Assembly (NCBI GenBank): GCA_030789695.1
Contig: CM061133.1
Coordinates: 98,971,128-99,035,127 of the forward strand
Reading direction: 5' to 3'
DNA from: Scilla litardierei
Lineage: Eukaryota; Streptophyta; Magnoliopsida; Asparagales; Asparagaceae
DNA: 64,000 nucleotides
In this document: positions 20,184 to 54,087 of the stretch, in pieces
How positions within the stretch are numbered: position 1 is the first letter of the stretch
How the letters are laid out: each line of letters begins with the position of its first letter
Program-made: the position numbers and the translations under genes
Notes under the pieces: generated by a model
The model's database searches: none
The model's input: only the letters and a program-made list of their open reading frames with translations
Told to the model about the DNA's origin: nothing

Positions 20184-20512
20184 CACAGCCTTGGGTTAGT
20201 CGCCTGATGGTCTATGACCAGACGTCTGAACAGTGTGTCAATCGGCTGGTTCATGGAATCCAGGCACCTAAAAGTGTGACCAACGTTCTTTTGCTCTCTA
20301 TCTATTGGACCCATATTTGGGAGCCATCCGAAGAAGGCTTCTCAAACCAGCACATTTTCCCAGACGCCTGAGTAGTGTACTCTAGATGTCTGGTTGCCTT
20401 GCGTTAGAACTTCTGCAATCTGTTTCTGACTTCAAACTTGTGTCAGTTTTTTCTGTGGTTGGAATTTCTCTTCCATTCTCAGCCTATTTTATTGCATTTT
20501 TTGTTAGCTTTC

Positions 20513-31910: not shown

Positions 31911-32015
31911 CTTCTACACTAAATGCTAAACTAGCTCAAGGAGAAGCTTTCAAGTGCATCCATGCTCTACATCTTCTAGCACTTAGTGATTTCAATCTTC
32001 ACGCCTTCACACACA

Positions 32016-33515
32016 TGCAGGGTTTTCTGGGACCCTTAGGGCACAAAAACTCTAGTCCCGTCCTAAGTCGAACGGAACATAGACAGAAATGCAGCGGAAA
32101 AATTTTTTATGTTAATCTAATTAACATGCAACCCTAAGGAACCAGACCCTATTAGCCAGGAACTCTGCCAACTTGGGATGGACCAGACCACCCCAAGAGG
32201 GATCTAACTACTGCGAATAATTAAATGAAAACTTAAACACATTCCCGGAATCTCAGCCCTGGGGCAGGCGAGATGTTCCGCGCCGTCTTCCGAGCTGCTC
32301 CCGTCCCACGCCGAGCCGCTCCTTGAACCGCTCCCTGCACCGCTCCTCAAACCGCTCCGCATCCCGAGGCGATCAATCCCCGTGTCGCCGAGCCACCCAC
32401 CACCGAAGAAAGTTTCACGCGAGTGAAACCTCCGCCTAGATTTCGGATCTGAATCCGAACTCCTTTGCGGCTTTGCTAGAGCCCTCAGGAGCAGGCAGAA
32501 ATTTATAGGGAGAGGAGAAATATTAATTTAGCTTAGATCCGAGCGTGCTCCAACATTTACGAGAGCCGCTCAGATCTAGAGCTTGGGACGAGTTTTGAGG
32601 AGGAGAGCAGACCCCTATTTATATAGGCGGCTGACTGCTCCCCTTCTCTCAAAATCCGATGTGGGACTAATAATTAGAGTTAATAAAATCAATTTAGTTT
32701 GCCTTTCACAAAGTGCAAACTTCCGTGAATTTTAACTCCCTCACCGTTGAACTTCAGGATTGATACAACCTATCAATTCGAAGGGTGTTCAACGGTGAAC
32801 GCATAGGAAAAAACCGTTCGTCAATCGGAGTTCGTTTGACCACTCAATTGTATGTCCAAAGTTCAGCCCAAACACACCAAAAACGCAAAACAGCAGCCGC
32901 CAGTTTATTCCTAGGGTTCTGAACCCACGTGGGCCCCACCATGGGGCCCGGATATTTGCTGGCGCGCACAGAACCCAGGCCCACCCGCAATAATGCGGGT
33001 GGGCCCCAGCCGCCCGCTGATGCGGGCGGCTGGCCTTGCTGACGCGGGGCAACCCCACGTCAGCGGGCAATTGCCTTGCTGACGCGGGTGGGCCCCGCGT
33101 CAGCGGGCAGTGGCCCCGCATCAGCGGGTGGGCCCGCTAACGCGGGCGTCAGCCCGCGTTAGTGCGCAGGCTGACGCCTGGGTCAGCGGGCCGGGCCCAC
33201 AGGTTGGTTTTTGTGCCTTTTTTAACAAATAAAAGGGCTTTTAGGCTCTTACTCATTTGGTCTTCTATTTAAACACTTTAAATAGACTTATTGGGCTCAT
33301 TTGGACTCCGTTTCTGACGCGGTTTGAACCTGTGCGTAGACCGGGACATTCCCGTCTTACCCGTGATCTTTTCCTTGCGTTTATATTATTAAATATTGTT
33401 TTAAACTATTTAAAACTTATTTAATCCCTTTTGCATCAAATGCAAAATAGTCCATATCTAGGCTTAAATTATCATTTGCATCAAATACAAATGATCCGAG
33501 GGCATATTCCTCTAC
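32016..33515 (-). repeat. E4 3' LTR (complete, 1500 bp)
   Basis: In the element's sense it starts TGTAGAGGAATATGCCC and ends AAAACCCTGCA. The TATA box is on the minus strand at 32616-32625. A GC-rich part at 32978-33200, upstream of the promoter, is built of perfect hairpins. Confidence 0.9.
32978..33162. repeat. Array of GC-rich perfect hairpins in E4 U3
   Basis: Stems are GGCCCACCCGCA with TGCGGGTGGGCC (32978-33005), CCAGCCGCCCGC with GCGGGCGGCTGG (33006-33033), CTGACG plus GGGG with CCCC plus CGTCAG (33039-33063), CTGACGCGGG with CCCGCGTCAG (33079-33103), and CTAACGCGGGC with GCCCGCGTTAG (33137-33162). The other LTR repeats them at about 38986-39170 with small changes. Confidence 0.85.
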
Positions 33516-34656
33516 ATCTCCCACTTGCACTCAGGATCATTTATCTCGAATGTAGGAGATGATTGCAAACATCTTTTGCAATATTTTATCCCTTGCATCA
33601 AATGCAAATTATTCTCCCTAACTAATTTCTACCTATTACTAGACGAAGATCGCACTCTGTGTGAGACCCTACAGCCTGACCCTTACAACAGGTTGGGCTC
33701 GAAGCCCTATACGGCAGTGACCACGAGCAGTGGTTGCCGTCCCTGCTTCAGGAATCATCATTATGTGGTTAAATCATTGACATGAGTATTGTCGGGACCA
33801 CCCTGACTGCTTCCGTGATGAATTCCGCAGTTATAGTCTTTTCGTCTAAACTATGTCGTGTAGATCAAGTCTAGGGTACGGTCAAACTGTCAACCCCAAT
33901 AACTTGACTCCGGTTAGTTTTTATCGATCTTTTAGTCAAAATGTTGGACTTCTTCCAACATACTCTGGCCAGAGTTTTTACTAAAGACCGAACTAACCCT
34001 ACGACACTAACTCCCATTGACCGGGAGAGACGAATCCTCTCTTGGTCATTACTCTCCTCATACGCTTCAAGTGTCACCCAATCAAAGACCTTTCGACAGG
34101 CCTTGCCTCGAAGCTAGGTCATTTGATCTAAATGGCACCGTTCATGCATAGGTTCTTCAAAATGACCTCAAGTCAAAAGACCAACTAGCCTATCATCACT
34201 CAGAGTCATCATTGACAGATTAGTCAATATAACCATATGATAACTCTTGTGGATCGTTCAGTGAACTCATTCTCTAATGAGCACCTGTGTCTCGTCTACG
34301 ACTTCGCCAAGTCAAGCGATCATGAGATCATCGCCACCGCTAAACGGTGAAGACTAAGACACAATGGTCTATCCGATGTTTCGATATCCTTGTCTCGAAA
34401 CATCTACGACCACGAACCCTTTTAGACTTATGCTACAGACGGTCAAACATTTCTCCATGATCGAGATACTCATCTCGATACCTGTTTGACCTCGCATGAA
34501 GTCTCAGGACTTTGCCTAAGTTAATATCCAATGTTAACTACATTATAACATAACTTTAGATAAATTATTCCCAAACAGCTTACTGTTATTTCGAACAAGA
34601 TGTTTGTGCTATGCACACATGAAGATAGATAGCCTCAAGGGTATCATCTTTCAACA
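33516..34656 (-). other. E4 3' module between RNase H tail and LTR
   Basis: About 1.14 kb of non-coding sequence. On both sides, in the element's sense, stands GAGTGCAAGTGGGAGATG, once just before the LTR (PPT role) and once before TGTTGAAAG at 34656. E5 has the same layout. Confidence 0.7.
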
Positions 34657-34699
34657 TCTCCCACTTGCACTCAGGCCCATTTATCTCGGTATCTCATAC

Positions 34700-34775
34700 C
34701 GTTTTACACATAAGTTTTCTCGACTTCATGTGGTAGAGCCTTCGTGAGTGGATCTGCTAAAACCGTCTACACTAT
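34700..34775 (-). pseudogene. E4 RNase H C-terminal relic
   Basis: The minus strand reads ADPLTKALPHEV, the typical end of Ty1/copia RNase H that follows the connection to the integrase-RT-RNaseH polyprotein. A stop follows soon after. Upstream sequence in the element's sense has only broken frames, so the rest of pol is deleted or decayed. Confidence 0.65.
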
Positions 34776-35364
34776 AGACTCAAGGGGTTTTTATGTTCAT
34801 GTTAGACCAACCATTTGAATCTCATTCAAATAATTCACTTGGTCTATCGGAATCTGTAATATTTAATATACTTGGATCTTATCCAGCTCATCGTACATTA
34901 CGATAATAATTTAAATTAGTTACTGGTCATTTCAAATGGCTCATATCTATTTCTGATAAAGTATCAAACTCTTTGATTACTTAATCAAAATATATGTTCC
35001 ATCTCTTTGATGCCTTGCATGTAATTTATACGCTCCCACTGACCTTGAAAACTCTCTGGCTAATTCATATAAGTTGGTCCGTCTAAATCATATTTAGAAA
35101 AACGAACTTATAAGTGAATGCTCCAATTTTCATGGTCAACATGAGCGTTTTACATCGGATTTGGTCCGAGTAGATCTGTACACATCTGTTGGCGAGACGA
35201 TTTCAACTAATCCTTTTTAAAGAAATTAGGGTGAAAACCGTTTTCGATCAACAAGATTGTACTTTACTATTTTCTTTCTGCACCAATCTTTCAACTTAAA
35301 GATTTACTTACAGAAAGTGAGGAAACATTTTCCTTAGGTACGTAAACTAAATTCTCAAATTTAT

Positions 35365-35556
35365 TTACGCACACGGACCTATTTTTATTGCATCAAGTTT
35401 TAAATCGGAGTTACTACTCCGAATTTCATCCAGGAAGTTGACTAAGTCATCATCAGTTATGATGTCTAACTCGACAATTCGTCTCACGAAATTCGAGTAA
35501 TTATACAACTTCTTTAATGATCGATTTAATGAATATCTTATTGACAATGTCCTCAT
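35365..35556 (-). CDS. Small frame partly conserved between E4 and E5
   Basis: 63 codons, with residues such as DDLVNFLDEIRSSNSD and a polar N-terminal part. The matching stretch of E5 (52085-52255, plus strand) still shows related residues (FLDAIRSS-like with changes) but is broken by stops. I do not recognise the protein. It could be a relic of a former coding region or chance conservation of a structured RNA. Confidence 0.25.
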   Translation of the reverse strand: MRTLSIRYSLNRSLKKLYNYSNFVRRIVELDIITDDDLVNFLDEIRSSNSDLKLDAIKIGPCA

Positions 35557-36425
35557 AGGACATTATCAAAACCTAGGCATTACAATCTGGGACTTAACCC
35601 AGAGAGAGGACTTAACTCAGAGTCACTTACTATGTATCGCACCAAGTCTCACTAAGTGTGATTCATATATTTTAACACACGGATGTGTTAACAGACTTGA
35701 CCTAAGAGAAAATCACATTTTCTTTTAATTACACAAGATTTTATGTAGCTAAGTATTTGACCATTCGATCTAATCGAATCAGTTTAAATACTTTCTACTT
35801 TTCATTCTTTATTTTATCAGACTTGTGTTTCATCAAGAACACGTGTCTTAATAAAATATACGAATAACTTATTTTGGTTAAAATAGACTCGGGTACATCA
35901 GTATGTACGAGACTGAGTTCGACAACTCATTCTTCCACTGTCTTACAGATGGTTTTCAGCCATTATATCTGAGAGGATAAGATTCACAAGTGTCCGTAGA
36001 CTTCATAATACGAGAGGTCAGACCCCTCTTTATGTGACTTGTGAAGCTTAGTCTCTCGACACGGCCTAGTCTATTTTTACCATATAAGTTTGCTACTATC
36101 TTGTGTATTTATATATTAACATTTAATATATATATAGTTATTACAAATTACTTAACACAAAACATTGCTTCCGAAGCAAGGTGACGACATTCGTCAAAAA
36201 ATGTGTTAGACGTTTTGTATAACTATTTATTCTGAAATCGTGACATCAAAATATATCACATTTTCATTTCCTCCTACTTATGCCTTTACTAATGATAAAT
36301 TAAACTAACTTTCTCAATTGACTTTCCGGAGTGCCTTCTTCCTTTTCTAAATCACATTTAGATATTAATTAACCCAACATAAATAGCTTATGCAAGCATC
36401 TTATGTATCCAAACGCTTGAGCTTT

Positions 36426-37331
36426 GCAATCTCGAGTTTAGCTCAAGAAGTTGCTTGTCTCAAGATCCGGTTGGGATACATAGTCTTGCACCGCTCATGC
36501 ACTTGTATTCGACTCAAACGGTTTGATCGAATTCTCGAACTTTGCAGATCAGAATTGTTTGTCCATACAACCTTGAGGGTAGTTCGACAAGTTGTAGAGA
36601 GAAACATACTTCGAATATCCTATATGTTCAAGCTGCCTCATATAGAGACGCGTGACATGTTGCGTGAATTTATTTGTTGGACCCAGAACTTAATGAAATC
36701 ACATTTCTCAAGTCTGTTCTTTAGAAGGTCATTTTAATGTCAACGAGAATATAGTTTTGATTCTATCAATTAGAATTTAACTTGATATTCAATTAATCAA
36801 CCAATTTGACCAATTAACTAATTCCATTAAAATTTATATTTTGATTCCTTCGGTAAACATAGTCTTGCCCTAGTTTAGCATATGTTCAATATTAAATATA
36901 GGTAGAATGGCTTTCATCTATCTATATCCTCCCACTATTTTTACGATCGTTTTAAAGCTTAATAACGAACGATTTAATCGAATTTAAAAATTAGTGAAAG
37001 AGGGATCCAATCATCCCGAACCTCACAACCTTGAGGAGACTCAACAAGTTGATTGGTTCCATGATTGGTAGACTAACTCTTGGTCAATCACATCACATGT
37101 GATTCCCTATCGATTTTTACCCACAGTCACTTATGATCTTGAGGAGACTCAACAAATCATAATGACTGGTCTAGTCAGACCCTTGATTTCGTGTCTAGAT
37201 TTGACTTAGATCGATACTCGAGGAGACCCGACGCATCGATTTGGGTCAAGTCTAGACTACATCACATGTATGTTGGAGTTTGTTCCTTAAAGAAAAACAA
37301 GTCACAGCTTGAGGAGACTCAACAACTATAA
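36426..37331 (-). ncRNA. E4 six-hairpin array with compensated stems
   Basis: Six stem-loops occur in the sense RNA (minus strand). Four have the apex TTGAG-TCTC-CTCAA or a variant and six different basal stems. They lie at 37302-37331 (UUAUAG with CUGUGA), 37210-37240 (AUCGAU with AUCGAU), 37126-37166 (GUCA plus TTATGAT with ATCATAA plus TGAC), 37007-37056 (CCAATCA with TGATTGG), 36566-36596 (TACAAC with GTTGTA) and 36426-36454 (GCAA with TTGC). Several pairs close only as G-U in the sense RNA, pointing to RNA function. E5 has the collinear array. Confidence 0.65.
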
Positions 37332-38006
37332 TTGTCTTCTTTGAGTTACCAAGCTCCAAAATCAAGGAGGGATACGAATTAATCTTTAATAAGATTTATA
37401 ACGCATTGACTAGATATAGTCCATGGTGTCATGCAATCATGATTCGCGACATTGCGGTCCAGCGGAACACAGCCAGGGAATTGACTAAGCCAGGATCACT
37501 GCCCCTTGTACTAGCAAGGGTTGACCCAGAACTCTTAGCCAAGCACATTGACTGGATCATGGTCCATTGAATGAAGCTTGTCATTTTTGTATGTGTGCCA
37601 TAAACTAAACAGCTTTTATTAACAACTAATTAATCCTATCAACTAGTTGCATCCTTAAATTCAAAATTTTAGGATTTGTTTAATAACTTTTATTAAGTCC
37701 TTATCAACTATAAGGTTCACGTGCTATCCTAATCGTTATTAGGATTTTAATAAAATTATTAACCAACGCTAAAAGCGAAGTCCTTTAATGAGAATTAATA
37801 ATAACAATTAGAATTAAGAAATCATTAAAAGGACTACCCTAATCAGGAATTAGGTCTTAAAGGGTTGTTAATATTTTATTAAAACACAGCATGCCATTAA
37901 AATTCAAATAAATAAATTTTAATCATTTTTAATGGCTAACCTAAAGGGTTGTCTTGTGTTATCAATTAAGTGACAAGAAGACATATCCATTAAAAATTTA
38001 CACTAA

Positions 38007-38297
38007 TTTTATCGCATAAAAAGTGTACAACTATTTAACAATTAAATAGACTAAAGTTTATCGCATAAACAATTTTAGCATGCATACTTAAATTCAACAT
38101 TTAAATTTAAAATTACGATTTTTAACACATTTTATTTTATCTCATAAAGTAAAAGCTTGTTTAAAAAATCATAACATTTGCATGCTTCTTTAAAATATTT
38201 ATCGCATAAAAATTTTAAACTTTTAAAATCAGTTTTTAAAAATATCTTATAAATTTAAAACATCATTTAAAAAATTCCATGTTTAAAATTTATCACA
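38007..38297 (-). ncRNA. E4 AU-rich triloop hairpin series
   Basis: Repeated words TTTAT-CGC-ATAAA on the plus strand (TTTATGCGATAAA in the element's sense) have changing outer pairs: TTTTAT with ATAAAA (38007), GTTTAT with ATAAAC (38056), further copies near 38136 and 38200, and a mutated one at 38289. They lie at the start of the internal region. E5 has a counterpart. Confidence 0.55.
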
Positions 38298-38299
38298 TA

Positions 38300-39525
38300 A
38301 GCTGCTCCCGTCCCACGCCGAGCCGCTCCTTGAATCGCTCCCCGCACCGCTCCTCGAACCGCTCCGCATCCCGAGGCGATCAATCCCCGTGTCGCCGAGC
38401 CACCCACCGCCGAAGAAAGTTTCACGCGAGTGAAACCTCCGCCTAGATTTCGGATCTGAATCCGAACTCCTTTGCGGCTTTGCTAGAGCCCTCAGGAGCA
38501 AGGCAGAAATTTATAGGGAGAGGAGAAATATTAATTTAGCTTAGATCCGAGCGTGCTCCAACATTTACGAGAGCCGCTCAGATCTAGAGCTTGGGACGAG
38601 TTTTGAGGAGGAGAGCAGACCCCTATTTATATAGGCGGCTGACTGCTCCCCTTCTCTCAAAATCCGATGTGGGACTAATAATTAGAGTTAATAAAATCAA
38701 TTTAGTTTGCCTTTCACAAAGTGCAAACTTCCGTGAATTTTAACTCCCTCACCGTTGAACTTCAGGATTGATACAACCTATCAATTCGAAGGGTGTTCAA
38801 CGGTGAACGCATAGGAAAAAACCGTTCGTCAATCGGAGTTCGTTTGACCACTCAATTGTATGTCCAAAGTTCAGCCCAAACACACCAAAAACGCAAAACA
38901 GCAGCCGCCAGTTTATTCCTAGGGTTCTGAACCCACGTGGGCCCCACCATGGGGCCCGGATATTTGCTGGCGCGCACAGAACCCAGGCCCACCCGCAATA
39001 ATGCGAGTGGGCCCCAGCCGCCCGCTGATGCGGGCGGCTGGCCTTGCTGACGCGGGGCAAACCCGCGTCAGCGGGCAATTGCCTTGCTGACGCGGGTGGG
39101 CCCCGCGTCAGCGGGCAGTGGCCCCGCATCAGCGGGTGGGCCCGCTGACGCGGGCGTCAGCCCGCGTTAGTGCACAGGCTGACGCCTGGGTCAGCGGGCC
39201 GGGCCCACAGGTTGGTTTTTGTGCCTTTTTTTAACAAATAAAAGGGCTTTTTGGCCCTTACTCATTTGGTCTTCTATTTAAACACTTTAAATAGACTTAT
39301 TGGGCTCATTTGGACTCCGTTTCTGACGCGGTTTGAACCTGGGCGTAGACCAGGACATTCCCGTCTTACCCGTGATCTTTTCCTTGCGTTTATATTATTA
39401 AATATTGTTTTAAACTATTTAAAACTTATTTAATCCCTTTTGCATCAAATGCAAAATAGTCCCTATCTAGGCTTAAATTATCATTTGCATCAAATACAAA
39501 TGATCTGAGGGCATATTCCTCTACA
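38300..39525 (-). repeat. E4 5' LTR, inner end deleted
   Basis: It matches 32293-33515 of the other LTR. The junction with internal sequence is at CACATAA/GCTGCTCCCG. The TATA box is on the minus strand at 38624-38633. The missing part would contain the LTR 3' end and the primer binding site. Confidence 0.88.
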
Positions 39526-41338: not shown

Positions 41339-42557
41339 TGTTGGGAGATGTATGCCCTCAGATCATTTGTATTTGATGTAAATGATTTTTTGAATAATAG
41401 ATGTGGGAATTTTGCATATGATGCTAAGGGAATTAAATGAGTCGTAAAATATTTACGTACATATTTATATAATAAACACGAGGAAAAGGTTACCTAGATG
41501 ACGAGATCGTCCCGGTCTAAACGCAGGTTCAAACCGCGTCAAAACGGACACCAACCGCACAAAATAGAACCAAAACAGTGAAAAAAGCCAAATTTGGCAT
41601 AACGGGCGCCCGACCCGCCTGGAGGTCATGGTAGGGTTTCTTTTAAACCCATTTTTGTGCGACGGCTGCAGTTTTTGCGAAAAACTAGTTTTGGGCCATA
41701 TTTGAGTCCTCGTTTGAGGGGTCAAACGAACTCGGAATGACGTAATGTTTGCTCCTACGTGTTCACCATTCAACCATCTTCGATTTGATAGGTTGTATCA
41801 CTTGCGAAGCTCAACGGTGAGGGAGGAAAAATTTGCTAAAGTTTGGCCTTTGTGAAAGGCAAACATTAATTAATTTTTTCCTACAAAACTTTTAGTCACA
41901 CATCGGATATGGAGTGAAAGAGAGGTGTCGGCCGCCTATATAAATATGGACCTACCCCCCTCCTTGAAACTCGTCCCAAGCTCTAGATCTGTATAGCTCC
42001 ATTAAACGTGAGTAAGCACAAATCTGAGCTTAAATTAAATATTCTCTTTCTCCCTAAATTTCTTCCTTGCTCCTGTTCGGGCTCTAGCAAAGCTACGAAG
42101 GAGCTCGGATCGGATCCGGAGTCTTGATGAAGGATCCACTCAAAGGTGAAATCTACTTCGGCGCGTGGTTGGCTCGGCGACAAGGGTATTTCTCACCTCT
42201 AGACGCAGTGCAGTTCGGGAAGCGGTTTGGCTCGGGGCACGGTTTAGCTTGGGAGATGCGGCGCGGGGCCAAAGAAGTGTTGCTGAAAATGACGCTTCGC
42301 ATTCTGCAAAAACGAAGTGAAAGGTATGTAGTTTAAATATTCATGCGTTTATAAATTGCAATTGTTAGATAGATCTATCCTTAGGGGTTGGTTGGACGCG
42401 ACCCGGGATAGTAGAGTTCTTGGGTAGGGTTTGTTCCCTTTAGGGCTAGAGTTAAAATTGTTTTAAGTTGTTTTTCCGCTGCTGTTTTGATGACTTCGTC
42501 CGACCGACTTAGGCTGGACATCGTATTTATGGCCCTAAGGACCCAGAAAACCCTTCA
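41339..42557 (+). repeat. E5 5' LTR
   Basis: It starts TGTTGGGAGATGTATGCCC and ends AAAACCCTTCA. TATATAAATA at 41937 is the promoter box. It carries only one arm (CGGGCGCCCGACCCGC, near 41604) of a palindrome that is complete in the 3' LTR. Confidence 0.92.
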
Positions 42558-42558
42558 G

Positions 42559-42571
42559 TGGTATCAGAGAC
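42559..42571 (+). promoter_or_regulatory. E5 primer binding site
   Basis: TGGTATCAGAGAC one base after the LTR end, complementary to initiator tRNA-Met apart from the last bases. Confidence 0.85.
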
Positions 42572-42750
42572 AGGTCTACATTGATCTATATATTTGCAAT
42601 TTATAAAATGTATATGATACATCATGTTTTCTCCATGAGATGGAGGTTTTGATTTGAACTTTAAAAATGTCGTTTTAAAGCAACGTTTTTATTTTCGAAA
42701 ATTGTTTTTGAAAATTAGATTTAATTTTATTTTAAAATTAAATCTTTAAA

Positions 42751-42974
42751 AATTATGTGATAATTTTGATGTAACTTAAAATTATGAGATAATATTTAAG
42801 TTGCATGTTTAGCAAGAAATTTTTATTAGATAAATTTTAATTGCTTTGTTATGCAATGCTAAATTGTTTAGTTAATAATTTTTAATGGTTATATTAGTTA
42901 TTTTGATTATGTGATATTTCAAGAAAAACTATTAGGATAGTCATTAAACCTTTCAGAAAATTATGAAATAATTT
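42751..42974 (+). ncRNA. E5 AU-rich triloop hairpin series
   Basis: AATTAT-GTG-ATAATT (42751), ATTAT-GAG-ATAAT (42781), TTAT-GTG-ATA (about 42907) and AAATTAT-GAA-ATAATTT (about 42958). The outer pairs differ between copies but still pair. It is the counterpart of the E4 series. Confidence 0.55.
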
Positions 42975-43538
42975 TTGGACAAGCTATGATTTAAATATTG
43001 TTGCAACATATTAGAATCATGTTTAGGGTAGCCCTCTCTTAATTATTATTTTAATCGTTCTTATAATAATTTCGAAAAAAATGCTATGATTTAAAATTCT
43101 TACAACTTGAAATTTAAAATGCCTAATACATTTTTAGGATAGCACCTTAAAAATCATTATAGTTGATAAGGACATTAATAAAAGTTATTAACCAATCCTA
43201 AAAATTTCGAATTTTATGATTCAACTAGTTGATAGGATTAACTAGTTTTAATGAAGCCATTTCTAATCGTATGGGACAAATATGAATAATAAGTTTCCTT
43301 CAATGGACCATGATCCGGTTTAGTGTTTTTTTGACTGGTGTTGAGGATCACCCTAGCTTGACTTTGGATAGTGATCCTGGCCTAGCCAAATCCCTAGCCG
43401 TGTTCCGCTGGACCGCAATGATGCGAATTATGATTATGTGACATCGTCGATTATATCTAGTCAATTACGTTAAAAATCTTCTTCAAGATTAGCTGTAACC
43501 CTCCTTGTTTTAGAGGTTGTCAACTATAGGTTCTTTGT

Positions 43539-44434
43539 TATAGTTGAGCACACTCAAGCTATGTTATAGATACTTTATGGAAACCAACTTCTCAATGCAT
43601 GAGATGTAGTCTAGACTTAACCCAAACCGTCGCGTCATGCCCATACACCGAGTGCCGGCGTAAGTTAGGCCAGACACGAAAACACGGGTGAGACTAGACT
43701 AGTCATTCTGATTTGGATAAGCACACTCATAATCATAAGTGGCTAGGGGTAAAAACCAACAAGGGAATCATATATGATATGATAGATGAAGAGCCATCTA
43801 CCGATCGCAGAGTCAAGCAATTTGTTAAGCACACGCAAGGTTGTGAGGCTCAGGGTGGTTGGATCTCTTTCCCATTAAATTTATTTAATTAAATCGTTCA
43901 TTATATGGCTAAAATGATCTCAAAATAGTGGGATGATATAGTTAGACAAAACCCATTCTATCTATATTTAAAATTGAACATATGCTATACTAGGCTAGTT
44001 CTATGTTTACCAATGGAATCAAAAACATAATATTCTAAGAGAATAAGTTAACTGGTCCAAATGGCTGGTTTTTGGAATATCAACTCAAATTCTAATTAAT
44101 AGACTAAAATATGTTCTCGTTGACATTAAAATGACATTCTTAAGCACAAGCTTAAGGACAATGATTTCCTTGAGCTCTGGGTCCAACAAAATAAATACAC
44201 GCTACATGTCACTCACCCCTATGATGGGCAGCTTGAACATACTGATGTTCAAAGCAAGTTTCTCCATACAATTTGTTAAGTCAACTCAAGGTTGTATAGA
44301 AAACGGTTTCGAACCACAAAGTTTGAAACTTCGATCAAATTGTTTGAATCAAAGATGAGTGCATGAGCGGTGCAAGACTATGTATCCCAAACGAATCTTG
44401 AGACGAGCAAGTTGTTGAGCACACTCAAGGTTGC
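43539..44434 (+). ncRNA. E5 hairpin array, collinear with E4
   Basis: The best stem-loops are 43539-43563 (TATAG with CTATG, apex TTGAG-CACA-CTCAA), 43709-43735 (TGATT with AATCA, CACA loop), 44266-44297 (ATACAA with TTGTAT) and 44407-44434 (GCAA with TTGC, apex TTGAG-CACA-CTCAA). Degenerate units lie near 43630 and 43826. The apical loop is CACA here but TCTC in E4, while the order of units is the same. Confidence 0.6.
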
Positions 44435-44807
44435 AAAGCTTAAGCATATGGATACACGAGATGTTTGCACAGTTATTATTTGTGTTGAGACGCGCAATAT
44501 CTAAATGAGATTTAGAAAATGGAGAAGGCATTGAGGAAAGTCAATTGAGAAAGAAAGTTTTATCTTGTAGGGATCGTCTAACCCTTGCAATACTAACAAC
44601 ACACACTAGAGGGGGGTGAATAGTGTAATGGCAATAAAATTGTCCAATTAAAATTTAACTTGTAAATGCGGAATTATAAATGCAAGAGGAATTAAACGGC
44701 ACAATCAATCCAAACGCAAACACAAAGTTTTACCATGGTTCCCTAAACTTGGGTACATCCAGCCATACCAATATTCACTATAATCCCACACAGAGAAGCG
44801 AATACAA

Positions 44808-45066
44808 ATCTCACAAGGAGATACCTCACAAAGAGGATTTATGCCCTACACAAGGACCCAACCAATCCTACACAAGGATCAAGACTCCCACACAGAGAAT
44901 CACTAACTCCCACTCAGAGAATTAGGGTTAGCCCTACACTAGGACACACGAACTCCCACAAAGAGAGTTAATTCCCACAAAGAGAATTCCCTAGTCCCAC
45001 AAAGAGACAACCTCTCACAAAGAGAGAAACTCCCACAAAGAGAGTATCCTAATCCCATAAAGAGAA
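44808..45066 (-). ncRNA. E6 mini-hairpin array in R-U5
   Basis: About twelve units, 13-19 nt each, stand one after another with loops ACAAG, ACAAA, ACACA or CCACAAAGA and stems that change in step. They include ATCTC with GAGAT (44808), CCTC with GAGG (44824), ATCCT with AGGAT (44865), AACTC with GAGTT (44951), AATTC with GAATT (44970), GTC with GAC (44994), CTCTC with GAGAG (45012) and ACTC with GAGT (45029). The second LTR repeats the array at about 49693-49930. It lies downstream of the TATA box in the element's sense and so would be in the RNA leader. Confidence 0.7.
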
Positions 45067-45350
45067 ATAGGAAAACCAATTACACCCTGTAAAGTAAATG
45101 CTCTTACCTTTGCCTTGAGATGCTTACTCATGAATGAATGCAAGGCATGGAAGAGGATCTCCAAGTGTTAGAATATGCTTGAGAGCACTTGGATGATTTC
45201 CCTTGAGCTGGACTTCAATGCATGAAGGAAGATTAATGCTCAAAAGAGGGAAATGAGGGAGCTTGAGAGTGGCTTATTGATCTCTTGAGATTTTCTATAG
45301 AGTCAAGAGTTATCAAGTGTTGTCAAGAGTTCTCAAGTGATGGCAGCACA

Positions 45351-45364
45351 CTCATATATATATG
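45351..45364 (-). promoter_or_regulatory. E6 LTR TATA box
   Basis: CATATATATATGAG on the minus strand. The copy in the other LTR is at 50220-50233 (CTATATATATGAG in its sense). It is followed in sense direction by repeated TCAAGAGTT/TCAAGTGTT-type words (read here on the plus strand at 45303-45338). Confidence 0.6.
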
Positions 45365-45448
45365 AATCCTATATCAAGCCCAAAAACCAAAGAAACAGCC
45401 AAAAAACCAAATCTGCAACGGCTAGAAACTGGGTGAAAACGACAAGAA

Positions 45449-45975
45449 CAGTCGACTGATGATCATAAGACAGTCAACTGATCAACGGCTAGAAAATATC
45501 CAACGGCTATAATCTGAGCCAGGACAGTCGACTGACAAAGTCAATACAGTCGACTGATAAACAGGACAGGCGCCTGTTATTCCTTCAGCAGGTGACTGCT
45601 GCAGGGGATGGATCGAAACAGAGAGCTGCACTCTTTCTCCAATTCTTCGCACATGCGATTGATGTTAATACTACAGTCGACTGTCAAATAGTCATGAGAC
45701 TGTACATTCTACATCAGTCGACTACTGTAAAATATAGAGAGAAGACAGAGATGCAGAGATTGCACTTACGCTAGACAGGCGACTGTTGGCCAAATCCCAG
45801 GCGACTGTTAGTATACAGACGACTGTAAACAGATCGACAGACAACTGTGCGTAAAGCTCAAGTTTGAGTCAATTGAAATGTTGACTTGAGCTGTGCAAAA
45901 CAGGCGACTGTAGAAGGATCTACAGGCGACTGAAAATCACCCAGTCGGCTGTGTTTCCCACATCAGGCGACTGCC
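45449..45975. repeat. Cluster of palindromic decamers in E6 U3
   Basis: About seventeen words of the form CAG-NCGN-CTG or close to it. Exact CAGTCGACTG occurs at 45449, 45525 and 45547, CAGGCGCCTG at 45567, and CAGGCGACTG or CAGACGACTG in several later positions. They lie upstream of the TATA box in the element's sense. The other LTR has the same cluster at about 50319-50840. Confidence 0.8.
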
Positions 45976-46416
45976 GGAAAGCCAGAGACTCCAAATGAGT
46001 CTTTGGACAGAGTGAACCTATTGGGTTGGATTCTATGATAATCCTAAGGTTCACTAAGATGGTTAAATGCATGTGCATGAATGAGCAAACCAGCTAGCAA
46101 GGCATTACATCAACCCTAGACTCAAAAGAGAGAGAAAGCAATAAAGTAGATTACATGGATTACAATGCTTTCTTAAGAGTCTAATTCTTCAATCTTGATG
46201 CCTTGATTGCTCTCCATCATCTCCAAGCTTTGGCACTCCTTGAGTCCAAACTTTGGCCCTTCTTCACGTGATGTACATCCTTACACCAAGTGATTAGTCT
46301 CCAAGAAAGATATCATTGAAATAAACGGAGAGACTAAAACATGAGATTCATTAGCAACAACATAATGTTGTGATCATCATCAAAATAAGATTGGTATGAA
46401 GCACCAATACTCAACA

Positions 46417-47350
46417 ATCTCCCCCTTTTTGATGATGACACACATTATGTAAATCATAAAGAATTAAAGCGCAATGCTAATGATCTCCCCCTACTTATAT
46501 GCACCAAGTAATTAATGAGCTACACAAAGGTAAATACTCATAGTACAAATAGAAAACATGGTGACATATAATAGGAATGGATTACATAAACAAATTGCAA
46601 AGAATAAAAGCATGCAAACATGAATGGTTTATCTAATCCCATATATCTCTCCCTATAGAGATATCTCTCCCCATATGCATATGTATATATCTCTCCCCCT
46701 ATAGATATGATTACATAATGCATATATCCTCCCACTTGACATCGTCAAAAAGGTGGACATCAAAAATATCCCCCTTTGTCATCTTAACCAAGATGTGACA
46801 ATATGCAAGAAAAGAAAGATATGTATGATACCAAATTTAAAAATTTAGTGGGTATCAATTCACTATCCCATGCTCCCCCTAGAGCATAGAAATGGTCAAC
46901 TTTTGACTTCTAGGATCTAATACCAAATAATTAATGGAGCCATGGGCCTTAAAAGTGTATCAAAGCAATAGATATGGAAAAATCAAGCTTCAAAAATACA
47001 CAAGGATATTGCCAAAATCAATGAGACATGAACCAAGTTGGCAATACACAACAATAGGTTTGGTTTGAGACCCAAAATAATCAAATGAAAATAATGATCT
47101 CAAATAACCTCCGAAATGAGAGTTAAAATATGTCTTAAAATAATTTAAACATATAATATATTAACTCCCCCATTGACATACACATGGATAAAAAATGCAT
47201 GCATGTCAATAAACCCCAAGGTCCCCATTTTCATGAAAAGAAATAAATTTGAAAATATTTTCAAAATCATGAAACACACACAATCAATGGGTATGCTTAA
47301 AATAAACATAGAAGCACAATACCCATGCAATATGCATATGTGTGAGGAAC
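46417..47350 (-). other. E6 3' non-coding region with several purine tracts
   Basis: Between the gag stop and the 3' LTR. In the element's sense it carries repeated AGGGGGAG-like tracts: the PPT at the LTR border and others near 46487, 46695, 46770 and 46872. No conserved frame was found. Confidence 0.6.
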
Positions 47351-49418
47351 CTAAACATTAGGTAACCAAACCCAAGAGGAGTTTGATTTCCTAACGTAAA
47401 TACACGAGGTGATCACATCCTTAACTAGAGAGTTGATGTAACTATCTCTCTCTTGCACACTAACCTTAGTGGGAATCCATAATCTCAAGGATTTCCTAGG
47501 CAATGGTTCTGCCTTTGCAAGAGGGAAGGATGTGGCATGCTTAGGTGTAAAAACAAATTTCTTAGCATGCAAAGAATGAGGATTTTGCTTCTTAGCAAAA
47601 AATGAAGATTCTTCATTCTTCCTCATCACCTTATGATCTACATGCTTCTTGTTGATGTTATTGTTGTACAAGAAAGCATGGTGATTCTTCTTAGGTGCTT
47701 TAGCAATATTTCTTGTATTTGCACCATAAGAGGAATTAGAGGTGGGTTTGGGAACCACATTTTGAATATAACCCAAGCCTCCTCTATGATTTGTCGGATG
47801 TTGTTTTTCCCACAAATCGTGGAGTGAATCCCTAGAATACACAAAGCTTATGAGCTTCCGGGATTCCTCTTCACATTTCAACGTAAGTTGTTGAATGTGA
47901 GCATCTAAGCTAAGGTTTTGAGCAATGAGTTTTTCATTAGAAAGACTCAATTCCTTAACTTGAAAGAGAGAAGTGTGTCTCTCACACAAGTGTCATAAAC
48001 ATGCTTTTCATCATGAATTACACTTGCAATAACTAGTTCATGCAATCTACTCTTAGCAATCTTATATTTTGTTTTTAATCTATTGTAAGAGTTGATGCAC
48101 TTACTAGCCTTTTCGGAGATCAAGTCAAAATTGATCTTGAGCTCCTCGTATGAGATCCTTTCTTCCTCGATCTCAACAACATCATCATCATCCTTGCAAG
48201 AGCTTGATGACGACTTCTCCTCCGTAGCCATGAGGCATGAATCCTCATAGGAATTGTATGCGTCAAGCCAAGCATCCAACTCTTCTTCGTTTAATCCGGA
48301 GGGGATTGGTGTAGGACCATCCATGGCTACAAAGTATGCGTGAGCATCCTCCTTTGTATCCTCTTCTTTGTTACTCGAAGTGTCCTCACTCGAATCATCA
48401 AAGGTCCCGACAAGTCCCTTCTTGTGATTTTTGGACTTGGACCTTCCTTTCCAATACTTCTTCCCTTTACCCTTGTAAGTTTCTTTGTTGGGTTTGGAAG
48501 GGCATTCGGTGGACAAGTGACCTTTTCCACTGCAAGTGTAACAAGTAGGAACCTTGTTAGAATTGGAGGCAAACTTTGACAAACACTTACCTTGCTTGCA
48601 TTTGAGGAAAGATTTGAATTGCTTGGCAAGATCCTCAATTTCTTCTCCACTTGCATCTTCTTGCTCATCTTCTTCGATAGGAGCTTCTCGATGGAATTTC
48701 CTCCTCCACTTGATTGGCTCCTCCTTGACATGGAATGCAACCCCCTTTTGCTTTTCAAGCTTCTCGGGCTTTGTTGGTTGAATCTCCTTCTTGTGTTGAA
48801 GCTTTACTTCATACGCCATGAGATTTCCAATGCACTCCTCAACGGTATATTTGGACATGTCATACGACTCCAAAATTCCGTTGGCCTTTGACTCCCAACG
48901 AGGTGTGAGAGAGTCTAGGATCTTCTCTACACGATCCTCTTGGGAAATCATCTTCCCGAGTCTCTCCAATGCGTTCACGATATCGGTGAACCTTGTGAAC
49001 ATCTCTGAAATGCTTTCGCCTTCCTGCATCTTAAACATTTCATATTTAGATCTAAACACAGTTTGTTTAGATTTCTTTACCTTCGTTGTCCCTTCATGAA
49101 AAATCTCCAAGGTGTGCCAAATACCATTTGCCATTTTCACATGGAGATGCGGTTGAACTCACTAGCTGAGAGAGCGCAATGTAATGCATTCATAGCTCTC
49201 GCATTGAACTTGATTGAGTCCTTCGCTGCCTTTGTCCTTGAAGCCGCAGGAGTAGTGGGCTTCTCAAATGGCACCTCCGTGATGTCCCATAGGTCTTGAC
49301 CCTCCATGTAGATCATCATTCTGATCTTCCAACTTGGGTAGTTGGTTCCGTTGAAGAGCGGGGGTCGAACGGTTGAGTGACCTTTTTCATGAGACGCGGA
49401 TGAGGCGGTGAATGCCAT
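47351..49418 (-). pseudogene. E6 gag polyprotein, two frameshifts
   Basis: Three frames join on the minus strand. 49418-49137 starts MAFTASSASHEKG and has the PPLFNGTNYPSWKIRM block typical of the gag N-terminus (DUF4219). 49140-47947 has the UBN2-type region (FRSKYEMFKMQEGESISEMF, DSLTPRWE), a basic stretch, and the zinc knuckle CYTCSGKGHLSTEC (CX2CX4HX4C) near its residue 200, then an acidic part. 47989-47351 is coiled-coil-like and ends with SLRLWIPTKV...SWVWLPNV and a stop. The shifts lie near 49139 and 47995. Whole length would be close to 690 residues. Gag forms the virus-like particle that packages element RNA; no protease or pol follows. This copy is probably inactive. Confidence 0.85.
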
Positions 49419-49440
49419 CGTTGCAGTATGCTTTAACCTC

Positions 49441-49452
49441 GCTCTGATACCA
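49441..49452 (-). promoter_or_regulatory. E6 primer binding site
   Basis: TGGTATCAGAGC on the minus strand, two bases inside the 5' LTR border. It is an exact match to the common plant tRNA-Met site. Confidence 0.92.
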
Positions 49453-49454
49453 AT

Positions 49455-51288
49455 TGTAGGGATCGTCTAACCCTTGCAATACTAATAACACACACTACAG
49501 GGGGGAGTGAATAGTGTAATGACAATAAAATTGTCCAATTAAAATTTAACTTGCAAATGCGGAATTATAAATGCAAGAGGAATTAAAAGGCATAATCAAT
49601 CCAAACGCAAACACAAAGTTTTACCCTGGTTCTCCAAACTTGGGTACATCCAGCCACACAAATATTCACTATAATCCCACACAGAGAAGTGAATACAAAT
49701 CTCACAAGGAGATAACTCACAAAGAGGATTTATGCCCTATACAAGGACCCAACCAATCCTACACAAGGATCAAGACTCCCACTCAGAGAATTAGGGTTAG
49801 CCCTACACTAGGACACAAGAACTCCCACAAAGAGAGTTAATTCCCACAAAGAGAATTCCCTAGTCCCACAAAGAGACAACCTCTCACAAAGAGAGAAACT
49901 CTCACAAAGAGAGTATCCTAATCCCACAAAAAGAAATAGGAAAACCAATTACACCCTGTAAAGTAAATGCTCTTACCTATGCTTTGAGATGCTTACTCAT
50001 GAATGAATGCAAGGCATGGAAGAGGATCTCCAAGTGTTGGAATATGCTTGAGAGCACTTGGATGATTTCCCTTGAGCTGGACTTCAATGCATGAAGAAAG
50101 ATGAATGCTCAAAAGAGGGAAATGAGGGCGCTTGAGAGTGGCTTATTGATCTCTTGAGATTTTCTATAGAGTCAAGAGTTATCAAGTGTTGTCAAGAGTT
50201 CTCAAGTGATGGCAGCACACTCATATATATAGGAATCCTATATCAAGCCTAAAAATCCAAAGAAACAGCCAAAAAACCAAATCTGCAACGGCTAGAAACT
50301 GGGTGAAAACGACAGGAACAGTCGACTGATGATCATGAGACAGTCGACTTATCAACGGTTAGAAAATATCCAACGGCTATAATCTGAACCAGGACAGTCG
50401 ACTGACGAAGTCAATACAGTCGACTGATAAATAGGACAGGCGCCTGTTATTCCTTCAGCAGGTGACTGCTGCAGGGGATGGATCGAAACAGAGAGCTGCA
50501 CTCTTTCTCCAATTCTTTGCACAGGCGACTGATGTTAATACTACAGTCGACTGTCAAATAGTCAGGCGACTGTACATTCTACATCAGTCGACTACTGTAA
50601 AATATGGAGAGAAGACAGAGAGATGCAGAGATTGCACTTACGCTAGACAGGCGACTGTTGGCCAAATCCCAGGCGACTGTTAGTATACAGACGACTGTAA
50701 ACAGATCGACAGACGACTGTGCGTAAAGCTCAAGTTTGAGTCAATTGAAATGTTGACTTGAGCTGTGCAAAACAGGCGACTGTAGAAGGATCTACAGGCG
50801 ACTGGAAATCACCCAGTCGGCTGCGTTTCCCTCATCAAGCGACTGCCGGAAAGCCAGAGACTCCAAATGAGTCTTTGGACAGAGTGAACCTATTGGGTTG
50901 GATTCTATGATAATCCTAAGGTTCACCAAGAGGGTTAAATGCATGTGCATGAATGAGCAAACCATCTAGCAAGGCATTACATCAACCCTAGACTCAAAAG
51001 AGAGAGAAAGCAATAAAGTAGATTACATGGATTACAATGCTTTCTTAAGAGTCTAAGTCTTCAATCTTGATGCCTTGATTGCTCTCCATCATCTCCAAGC
51101 TTTGGCACTCCTTGAGTCCAAACTTTGGCCCTTCTTCACATGATGTCCATCCTTACACCAAGTGATTAGTCTCCAAGAAAGATATCCTTGAAATAAACTG
51201 AGAGACTAAAACATGAGATTCATTAGCAACAACATAATGTTGTGATCATCATCAAAATAAGATTGGTATGAAACACCAATACTCAACA
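49455..51288 (-). repeat. E6 5' LTR
   Basis: 1834 bp, highly similar to 44576-46416, with the same TATA box, decamer cluster and hairpin array minus one unit. The high similarity means that E6 is one of the younger insertions, as its position inside E5 inside E1 also shows. Confidence 0.93.
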
Positions 51289-52850
51289 TATCTATCATTA
51301 GTAAAGGCAAAAGTAGGAGGAACTAAAAATGTGACATATTTGATATCACGGCTTCAGGATAACAATTATACAAAATGGAATAGATTGTCATATGTGTTGT
51401 AAAAGGGAGTAATTGTTGTTTCTTGGACCTAACATTTTTGGCTAATGTTGTCACCTTGCTTCTGAAGCAATAAGAAATTTGTATAACGATATTGTATTAA
51501 ATGTTAATACACAAATACACAAGTTATAGAAACTTTATCTATGGCAAAATAGACTAGGCCGTACCGTAGAGACTAAGCTTCACAAGTCACATAAAGAGGG
51601 GTCTGACCTCTCGTATTATTAAGTCAAGAGACACTTGTGAATCTTGATTCAAAGGTATGATGGCCAAAATTCCATATGTAAGACAGTGGGCGAATGAGTT
51701 GGTAAACTCGTAGTCTCGTACATACGGATGTACCCTGACCCAAGTCTAAGTTAGCCTGGATAAGTTGTTCTTATTTTATTACGACACGTGTTCTACCTGA
51801 AACACAAGTCTGATAAAATAGATAACACAATGACAGAAGTATTTGAACTGCTTCGATCTAATCGAAGAGTCGAATTATAATTCTTGTGTTATTAAAAGAA
51901 AATGTGATTTTCTCTCAGGTCAAGTCTCTTAACACATCGGTGTGTTGGAGAGCTTGAATCGTACCTTGTTAGACATGGTGTGATGCATGGCAAGTGGCTC
52001 TGGGTCACAATCCTTCCTCTGGGTTAAGTCCTAGATAGTAATGCCTAGGTCCTTGATGATGTTCTACAAGGACCTTATCAATTTGATATTCATTAAATCA
52101 ATCATAAGGAAGTTACTGGATTACTCGAGTCTCGTGAAACTAATAAGTCGAGTAAAACAACATAATTAATGATGAATTAGTCAACTTCTTGGATGCCATT
52201 CGAAGTAGTGACTCTGATCAATAACTTGATGTAATCCGAATAGGGTCCTTGCACGTGAATACAGTATGGACTTTAGTTTACGTGCCCAAGGAAAGTGTTT
52301 CCTTTGGCTGCAAGGGAATCTTCGAGTCTAGAAGATTGTTGCAGAAGAAAAATAGTGAAGTACAACTTGTGTTGGTTGAGAACAATTATCATCCTAACTC
52401 CTATAAACGAACTATGATGAAATTTTCTCACCAACAGCTGTGTACAGATTTATTCGGATGGGACTCGATGTAAATGCTCATGATGACCATGAAAATTGGA
52501 GCATTCATGTATAGTCTGTTTCTAAATATGATTTAGAAGAATGAACTTATATGAATCGGCCAAAGAGTTTTCAAGGTCAGTGGGAGCGAATATAAAACAT
52601 GCAAGGCATCATGGAGCATGAACATATGGTTTGGCAAAGTGGTCAAAGAGTTTGACACTTTATCAAAAATGATTATGAACCGACTAAATAACCAATAAAC
52701 TTATTTGGATTATTCTCATAAGGTATGATGAGCTGGAGAGATCCAGGCAAGACATTAATTATGGATTCCAAGAGACCAAGGAAATTATTTGGATAAGATT
52801 CAATTATGTGGTCTAACATAAACATAGAAACTCCTTAAGTCTATACAGTA
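51289..52850 (+). other. E5 internal region after E6, non-coding
   Basis: It continues the E5 sequence collinear with E4 (ATCATTAGTAAAGGC follows directly in E4). It includes the broken counterpart of the E4 63-codon frame at 52085-52255. No complete coding region was seen. Confidence 0.6.
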
Positions 52851-52925
52851 GACGTTTGAGCAGATTCACTCACTAAGGCTCTGTCACATGAAGTCTATAG
52901 AGACTTATGTGTAAATGCAGTATGA
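52851..52925 (+). pseudogene. E5 RNase H C-terminal relic
   Basis: The plus strand reads ADSLTKALSHEVYRDLCVNAV followed by a stop. It matches the ADPLTKALP ending of Ty1/copia RNase H and the E4 relic. The rest of pol is absent. Confidence 0.65.
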
Positions 52926-52962
52926 GATACCAGGATAAATGGGCCTGAGTGCAAGTGAGAGA

Positions 52963-54087
52963 TGTTGGGAGATAGGTTTCCCTCGAACTCGAGACAATTT
53001 ATCTCTGTGTAAGTGTACAAACATCTTAGTCAAAATAACAGTAAGCCATTTGGTAAGAACTTACCTAAGTTTAATAATAATGTAAGTATTCATTAGAACT
53101 TAGGTAAAATTCTAAGACTTAATATGAGGTTAAACAAGTATCGAAATGATGATCTCGATCATAGAGAATTGTTTGACTGTTATTAGCATAAGTCTGAAAC
53201 GTTCGTGGTCGTAGATGGTTCGAGAAAAGTATATCGAAACATCGGATAGACCATTGTGTCTTTGTCTTCACCATGGAGTGGTGAGATGATCTCATGGTCG
53301 TTTGACTTGGCGAAGTCGAAGACGAGACACATGTGTGCATTGGAGAATGAGTTCATTGAACGACCCAATAAAATGTATCATATGGTTATGATTGACCAAT
53401 CTGTCAATGATAACTCTTAGTGATGATATGTAAGTTGGTCTTTTGACTTGAGGTTATTGTACGAACCTGTGCGTGAACGGTGTCATTTAGATCACTGATC
53501 TAGCCTCGGGAAAGCCCCGTTGCAAGGTCTTTGGTTGGGTGATATTTGAAGCGTGCGAGGAGAGTAATGCCCAAGATAGGATTCGTCTCGCCTGGTCAAT
53601 GGTACTGAGTGTCGCAGTGTTAGTTCGATCTTTAGTGAAAACTCTGGCCAGAGTATGTTGGAAGAAGTCTAACATTATTTAACTAAATATCGATGGAGAT
53701 TAACCAAGTTCAAGCTGGTAGGGTTGATAGTTGACCATACCCTAGGCTTGACTAAGCGACATAGTTTTGACGAAAAGACTATAACTGTGGTATTCATCAC
53801 AGACACAGTTAGGGTGGTTCAGACAATACTCATGTCAATGAGTTAACCACATAATTATGATACCAAAATAGGGACGACACCTGCTGCTCATGGTCTTTAC
53901 CGTCTGGGGTTTCGAACCCCACCTGTAGTAGGGTCAGGTTGTAGGGTCTCACACAGAGTGAGACCTTCGTCAAGTAATAGGTAGAAATTAGGGAGAATAT
54001 GCATTTGATGCAAGGGATAGAAAACTGCAAAGAGTTTGCAGTTAGCTCCTACATTCGAGATAAATGATCCTAAGTGCAAGTGGGAGA
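52963..54087 (+). other. E5 3' module between RNase H tail and LTR
   Basis: About 1.13 kb, preceded by GAGTGCAAGTGAGAGATG and ended by AAGTGCAAGTGGGAGATG at the LTR border. It begins TGTTGGGAG, like the start of an LTR. Collinear with E4 33516-34656. No conserved protein. Confidence 0.65.

Follow-up and report, generated by a model that had tools for sequence, protein, structure and literature searches.

A hairpin array under selection in the sense RNA of a LARD-like LTR element family of Scilla litardierei and its possible role in RNA capture

Non-coding LTR elements depend on the Gag of a partner for packaging, and to our knowledge it is an open question in plants how the RNA of such elements is chosen by the partner's particles. 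The window analysed here (the whole stretch of 64,000 nt from Scilla litardierei) contains two elements, E4 and E5, in which a sequence-only reading had noticed the same series of six hairpins, considered to be under selection in the sense RNA and possibly to act as a packaging, dimerisation or trans-factor binding array. Are these hairpins a selected structure, in which strand did selection act, and what might read them?

Two non-coding LTR elements and their hairpin units

E4 and E5 both belong to one family of LARD-like LTR elements, which are non-coding and whose primer-binding site (PBS) is of the Copia type (Table 1). The LTR copies of E4 share 98.6% identity across 1226 nt and those of E5 89.4%, hence E4 is young and E5 is old. 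The PBS of E4 was removed by a deletion, and its relative L032 retains both the PBS and the missing LTR end. E5 is split by a nested LTR element at about 44563-51289, and its flanks, CTAAG and CTGAG, are read by us as a decayed target-site duplication. The PBS of E5 (TGGTATCAGAG) is of the initiator-Met-tRNA type. A polypurine tract (AAGTGGGAGA) precedes the 3' LTR of E5, which thus has the two LTRs, PBS and polypurine tract of a LARD; LTR pairs and a PBS were also found in L032 and L072.

Within E4 and E5, excluding the nested element, the only start-to-stop frame of 150 aa is one whose end lies just within the 5' LTR of E5. Stop-to-stop frames in E4 and in E5 51200-54200 do not exceed 119 aa, the longest of E4 (119 aa) lying in the LTR, and they reach at most 152 aa in the longer copies L071 and L072. 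As in LARDs, the internal domain is without coding capacity; one decayed relic, ADPLTKAL, was read as the end of a Copia RNase H. The original LARDs have LTRs over 4 kb, and those of Sukkula are likewise longer than the 1.2-1.5 kb observed here, for which reason the family is filed as LARD-like only. TRIMs are described as having short LTRs and a nearly absent internal domain (PMC7215508). Membership in this group was rejected, as the internal domain of L032 measures about 5 kb.

Other features of the window were also recorded. The terminal repeats of the nested element match at 44565-46028 and 49454-50900, and its minus strand carries a Copia-type gag with a zinc knuckle (47947-49140; Retrotran_gag_2, E 4.5e-22). 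This gag was the only Pfam match above the curated cut-off among nine ORFs of the window; two weak sub-threshold matches on another ORF were disregarded. Large direct and inverted repeat blocks at 17538-31021 (20.5-21.4 kb with 28.3-29.2 kb; 18.4-19.1 kb with 21.6-22.4 and 29.4-30.2 kb) represent another nested repeat family. Searches of the window yielded no tRNA and no Rfam match above the gathering score.

The six collinear hairpins were recovered as folds in both elements, at 37335-36416 on the minus strand of E4 and, in the same order, at 43531-44444 on the plus strand of E5. Each unit consists of a variable lower stem, a 2-nt 5' bulge (mostly UG), an apical stem of 5 bp (mostly UUGAG/CUCAA) and a loop. 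The loop is specific to the lineage and has four or five bases, more in E5-like unit 2. Units 2, 3, 4 and 6 carry additional outer helices. In relatives of E5, unit 3 has the apical stem ATGAG/CTCAT, a swap from U-A to A-U relative to E4. Two of the E5 units had been described as decayed. The apex of unit 2 is indeed rebuilt, in relatives as well as in E5, but the damage in units 3-5 is mostly private to E5 and the relatives keep these stems.

Table 1 Positions of the elements and hairpin units in the window (copy L032 where indicated)
Feature	Position	Strand	Description
E4, LARD-like LTR element	32015..39525	-	LTR pair; relative L032
E4 5' LTR	38300-39525	-	3' end truncated, PBS lost
E4 internal domain	33517-38299	-	
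E4 3' LTR	about 32015-33516	-	
E4 unit 1	37298..37335	-	loop TCTC (30/30 E4-like copies); predicted fold
E4 unit 2	37193..37257	-	loop TCTC; outer stem GTCTAGA..TCTAGAC; fold -30.2 kcal/mol
E4 unit 3	37124..37168	-	loop TCTC; fold
E4 unit 4	37007..37068	-	loop TCTC; three stacked helices
E4 unit 5	36562..36598	-	loop CTACC; damage to the apical stem in E4 and in one more of the 30 copies
E4 unit 6	36416..36464	-	loop CTAAA in E4; CTACA in 29/30 E4-like copies
E5, second family member	41339..55324	+	LTR pair
E5 LTRs	41339-42557 and 54088-55324	+	89.4% identical
E5 primer-binding site TGGTATCAGAG	42559..42569	+	directly 3' of 5' LTR
E5 unit 1	43531..43571	+	loop CACA; without two bulge bases present in relatives
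E5 unit 2	43609..43675	+	outer stem retained; apex rebuilt, loop CCCATAC
E5 unit 3	43699..43746	+	loop CACA
E5 unit 4	43801..43862	+	loop CACA
E5 unit 5	44263..44300	+	loop TCAA
E5 unit 6	44397..44444	+	loop CACA
PBS-proximal mini-hairpin series	L032:6310-6830 (minus); E4 about 38010-38310 (minus); E5 42610-42970		TTTAT-GNG-ATAAA, varying stems

The pattern TTGAG-N3-6-CTCAA occurs six times in the window against 0.37 expected, and five of these occurrences lie within E4 and E5. A covariance model of the unit, applied to both strands of the 64 kb up to an E-value of 5, recovers only its 11 source units. In the longer copies L031, L032, L071 and L072 it finds 6, 6, 5 and 5 units, respectively, all in sense direction. 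A longer form of the core pattern had no match in viral contigs, a set from which records of the source genome were possibly excluded.

In the genome of 3.68 Gb, two 0.9-kb queries from E4 and E5 gave 4052 and 6712 first-look candidates, respectively, and the family is apparently present in thousands of copies. The exact hairpin core with a C- or T-first loop has 6161 matches (3066 + 3095; reversed control 0 + 0), to which a single element can contribute up to about three. Forty candidates were scored per query (40/4052 and 40/6712) and 30 of each 40 were retained, with pairwise identities of 95-99.8% (E4-like) and 89-99.8% (E5-like). Together with five complete copies of further lineages they form the 65-copy set used below. 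The further-lineage copies stem from eight loci picked among 59 matches with A- or G-first loops, a choice biased to ACAA and GCAA; three of these loci (L065, L066 and L069) are incomplete and were omitted from the alignment. Three small alignments, A3, A4 and A5, comprise 15, 16 and 15 of the 65 copies, with L068 removed from A3 and L045 from A5.

Selection on the folded sense RNA

Hairpins of this kind could be chance inverted repeats in AT-rich, decaying sequence. The structures were initially chosen by eye, and pairs taken from a single copy look better on that copy's own lineage, as seen in the control outside the units. Of the 117 pairs of the E4 fold (six units and one small hairpin between units 3 and 4), 77 are the same in E4 and E5 and 13 differ on one side. 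Compensation accounts for 8 pairs (null 2.8, P 0.003), and 19 are broken (null 28-30). When the 11 units are treated as paralogues, 81.0% of the cells are paired, with 17 double-changed cells versus 5.9 in shuffles and a covariation score of 0.343 versus 0.144; taken by itself, this comparison is not unbiased, as the E4 units had been picked as hairpins.

Standard counts for single units in the small alignments point the same way. In unit 4, 97.7% of the cells are paired across 15 copies, 18 cells are double-changed versus 4.6, and 6 of the 23 pairs are changed on both sides (shuffles 3.2). In unit 3, 93.8% of the cells are paired and double-changed cells number 6 versus 2.0; pairs changed on both sides (2 versus 1.4) are not unusual in this unit alone. 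RNAalifold of 15 copies of unit 2 found compensated changes in 4 of 13 pairs.

Selection along the lineages was assessed with a branch test, for which the 65 copies were aligned, a tree was built and substitutions were placed by parsimony. Expected values come from 2000 random relocations of the substitutions among columns sharing the parental base. Pairs derived from E4 bias the path to E4, as suggested by the outside-unit control, which gave 46 breaking changes versus 82.2 expected and 6 compensated doubles versus 1.8 on all internal branches; this apparent conservation is taken as ascertainment bias. The main result is therefore that of the internal branches off the path to E4 (61 branches, 387 substitutions). 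The sequence-only reading had named a covariation test as a check, and ours, which is based on parsimony and not on R-scape, came out in favour of the stems: pair-breaking changes in the units number 14 versus 52.6 expected, a value as low as in none of the 2000 relocations. Changes from Watson-Crick pairs to A-C are likewise depleted (6 versus 23.1 expected, 0/2000 as low), those to G-U are near expectation (28 versus 24.0), and single pair-keeping changes amount to 45 versus 31.1. These counts were nearly constant over 12 random tie-breaking seeds. Outside the units, the same branches show 45 breaks versus 59.9 (P 0.0175), 23 changes to G-U versus 25.1 and 19 to A-C versus 24.6, a mild deficit which may reflect further structures outside the units or a small remaining bias.

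On terminal branches, which mostly represent decay after insertion, stems break at a near-background rate, with 175 breaks versus 198.5 (P 0.027; a slight deficit), 63 changes to G-U versus 69.9 and 80 to A-C versus 86.6. Because breaks are depleted on the off-path internal branches and mostly not on the terminal ones, selection acted on the folded RNA while the element replicated and was relaxed after insertion. The signal persists in the off-path test, which removes the bias of choosing structures by eye, and structures from other lineages predict the E4 pairs. Both results refute chance inverted repeats, whose probability we regard as negligible.

An excess of compensated doubles is seen on the E4 stem branch, where they number 5-8 versus 1.1 expected if the structures are those of four non-E4 copies. 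The E4 structure reveals no excess on the off-path internal branches (1 versus 0.54). The asymmetry between G-U and A-C is absent from the E4 stem branch (3:3, 2:4, 5:5 and 3:4).

This asymmetry also bears on the question of the strand. The apical core is a perfect DNA palindrome except for the loop, as would suit cruciforms or sites for a dimeric DNA-binding protein. However, a function in double-stranded DNA does not predict that G-U is tolerated and A-C removed on the sense strand, and the bulge is one-sided, so that we consider palindromes acting as DNA very improbable. G-U and A-C are mirror images of each other on the two strands; the asymmetry therefore points to selection on the sense RNA rather than on DNA palindromes or antisense RNA, in support of what the sequence-only reading had proposed from G-U pairs in E4. 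Its examples are family features only in part. UCGGG/CUCGA is kept. Of the two G-U pairs in UUAUAG/CUGUGA, however, one is replaced by U-A in 21 of the 30 E4-like copies; the change in CUUGAG/CUCGAG of unit 6 is private to E4, with A at this position in 29 of 30. At the level of lineages the argument stands.

A further variable pair was observed in E4 unit 2 (window 37240-37210), with G in 5 and A in 25 of the 30 E4-like copies on one side; the opposite side has T in 5 copies and C in 25. In four E4-like rows of alignment A5 the two sides are G-U or A-C together, and the alternation is possibly an isosteric wobble swap.

Loop sets across lineages

Loop classes are grouped within elements. E4-like units 1-4 have TCTC in 29-30 of 30 copies and units 5 and 6 have CTACC/CTACA. 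In the E5-like copies, CACA is found in units 1, 3, 4 and 6 (24-28 of 30 copies), TCAA in unit 5 (23/30) and CCCATAC in unit 2 (21/30). The apical loops had been given as TCTC in E4 units 1-4, which is correct, and as CACA in E5, which applies to units 1, 3, 4 and 6 and not to units 5 and 2. Outside unit 2, the five further-lineage copies mainly have NYAA, chiefly TCAA and ACAA, the latter favoured by the choice of copies. Among the 59 purine-first matches, 53 are one step from TCTC, CACA or TCAA and 6 are two steps away (own count).

A loop census was based on the first 100 of the 6161 pyrimidine-first matches listed, all on C1, with units 1-3 mostly outside the fixed flank. Among these matches 44 have TCTC, 31 CACA and 16 TCAA. 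They form 22 groups of neighbouring units, or 19 if one local tandem array is counted once. Neighbouring loops are identical or one step apart in 17 of these 19 clusters among the matches listed, compared to a shuffle mean of 5.7, a contrast whose significance is overstated by the shuffle since neighbouring copies of one lineage are non-independent events. Two of the 19 clusters mix TCAA and CACA. On C1:62321052-62329347, four groups of CACA units are spaced at about 2.55 kb on one strand, probably by local tandem amplification of part of a CACA-type element.

Seven loci were picked from clusters in the census list. TCTC occupies all six units of L079 and every unit detected in L081 (5) and L083 (4). 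In a tree of the whole region with the cores masked, these three copies group with L077 and L080 with full support and apart from E4. As judged from these comparisons, sets of four to six loops differ as wholes between lineages, which is in line with the earlier suggestion that the loop set had changed together.

For E4 itself, the pattern of TCTC in four of six units may come from recombination. Trees of the unit 1-4 block and the unit 4-6 block conflict on the placement of E4 relative to the TCTC lineage, as would be expected if E4 were a mosaic, and it may be one whose TCTC block was shared with a relative. Extended to the whole family, recombination or gene conversion between elements and units could produce the loop coordination with selection on the stems and not on the loops, and loop sets shared in blocks are what such exchange would leave. 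Conversion of long cores alone is insufficient, however, since E4 unit 2 carries TCTC on TCGGG/CTCGA and E5-like unit 3 carries CACA on ATGAG/CTCAT, each a lineage loop on a unit-specific stem; any conversion would need tracts as short as about 6-12 nt. TCTC in six out of six units of L079 also speaks against this explanation, which we consider possible, though doubtful.

Possible roles of the array

Among the roles first suggested, dimerisation is disfavoured, and a trans-factor or packaging array is, we infer, the best one remaining. We give a probability of about 0.55 to the reading that the units are protein-recognition hairpins in the sense RNA, bound by the Gag of a partner for RNA capture, with loops that switch along with the partner. 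Each unit would display its loop on a near-constant stem of five pairs above the two-nucleotide 5' bulge, and in the lower stem pairing would suffice, with the sequence free. A one-sided bulge, a constant apical stem and an exposed short loop make up the kind of site that RNA-binding proteins read. A trans-acting RNA-binding protein, most likely the Gag of the autonomous partner, would bind several units cooperatively, with the six copies supplying avidity, and the bound element RNA would be captured into particles and then copied. As one protein would have to read all units, the loops would change together, shifting as a set when the specificity of the partner, or the partner itself, changes. 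Binding by a protein, the identity of that protein as Gag, encapsidation as the purpose and a change of partner behind the loop switching are thus all parts of a proposal.

Two features of dispersed packaging signals were found: stem-loops occur in series, with a loop motif in common and stems of free sequence, and their structure is under selection in the strand that would be packaged, as indicated by the asymmetry of G-U and A-C and the depletion of breaks. Several observations count against the proposal. In L032, the PBS and the array are about 1.3-2.2 kb apart, a greater distance than a minimal packaging signal would require; the E4-like loops are a mixture (TCTC four times, CTACM twice) and E5-like unit 5 is off its set; and recombination could account for part of the loop coordination.

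Contacts between RNAs would be another use of hairpins, either through kissing-loop dimerisation or through base-pairing between the loops and a single site in another part of the element. Ty1 RNA has two hairpins with complementary 7-nt motifs in a model of dimerisation and packaging (PMC5454406), and palindromic stems might in principle make extended duplexes. However, the loop classes TCTC, CACA, TCAA and CTACA all lack self-complementarity, mutually complementary loops were not found, and four bases are short for kissing. For the one pair of classes compared at fixed alignment positions, no aligned site had GAGA in L032 and TGTG in E5. Such contacts therefore appear quite unlikely.

The array might also, with a host protein in place of Gag, control another RNA step in cis, be it nuclear export, stability, a block to translation or evasion of silencing. 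The leader contains a second, AT-rich series of mini hairpins with minimal upstream reading frames (Table 1). Over the 1480 nt that precede unit 1, 28 of the 30 E4-like copies contain TTATGNGATAA 5-8 times and the other two lack it, and the 30 E5-like copies contain it 0-5 times; the total is 294 on the sense strand, none antisense and one after shuffling. The middle loop base is C in 137, T in 88 and A in 69 cases and never G, so that each mini hairpin spells a minimal upstream frame, AUG-CGA-UAA, AUG-UGA or AUG-AGA-UAA, possibly acting as a translation block. Selection on the sense RNA and coordination of the loops are compatible with any sequence-specific RNA-binding protein, but a stable host protein would not obviously require switching of loop classes, as a co-evolving partner would. 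On this basis a host protein is an unlikely reader of the array. Between E5 51430-54240 and the matching part of L032, identity is mostly 77-85%, at least as high as in the hairpin block, and the remaining non-coding internal domain may hold further functional RNA structure.

A search for Copia gag yielded 111,024 first-look candidates, of which 150 were scored and four loci sampled with 1.6 kb upstream each. No unit, and thus no autonomous carrier of the array, was found in these four upstream regions, in which leaders are short and the PBS lies 86-193 nt before the gag match; this result, too, counts against the proposed capture by Gag. The array is therefore not a general feature of Copia elements.

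BARE2 retains coding sequence other than that for Gag. It is described as a plant Copia element which, unable to make Gag, uses the particles of its partner BARE1 for packaging, with mention of conserved dimerisation and packaging signals; the passages on BARE2 describe no hairpin array (PMC3735527). In the RNA of Ty1, also an LTR retrotransposon, hairpins close to the 5' end act in dimerisation and packaging, and a mini element is mobilised by a helper (Ty1 TIPIRT, PMC5454406), but the Ty1 loops are complementary and lie in a pseudoknotted leader, whereas those of E4 and E5 are non-complementary and the unit is repeated six times. By analogy, the closest working model for the array is that of the packaging signals of satellite tobacco necrosis virus (STNV). 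These resemble it, as do those of MS2, in that several degenerate stem-loops show a short loop motif, and in the STNV aptamer the loop (AXXA, e.g. ACAA) matters and the stem sequence does not (PMC3593212). The viral signals belong to genomes with their own coat protein and were studied in vitro, whereas the E4/E5 elements are protein-less and have their units confined to one block of 0.9 kb.

Conserved RNA structures specified by LARDs and TRIMs have already been reported (PMC7215508). The family shares with LARDs such as Sukkula the LTRs, the absence of encoded proteins and a conserved non-coding internal domain; it differs from LARDs and TRIMs in that a single hairpin design recurs as a collinear array, with loops specific to the lineage, a structure tested here along lineage branches. 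In the open-access literature, we came across no account of a repeated hairpin array whose loops switch between lineages.

If the preferred reading of Gag-bound hairpins is taken one step further, the loops could form a recognition code, in which the UCUC, CACA and UCAA sets would be alternative specificities for partner Gags, parasites would switch partner by rewriting or swapping loops, and the set would name the autonomous element that mobilises them. We hold this extension only tentatively and think it more probably wrong than right.

Comparing G-U with A-C on off-path branches can serve more generally to tell transposon structures that function as sense RNA from those that function as DNA. 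The family studied here has a compact RNA module, clearly marked by selection on the sense strand, whose loops differ set by set from one lineage to another, and its numerous copies in the genome are a natural record of mutagenesis. The array is a defined, swappable sequence and a candidate packaging code.
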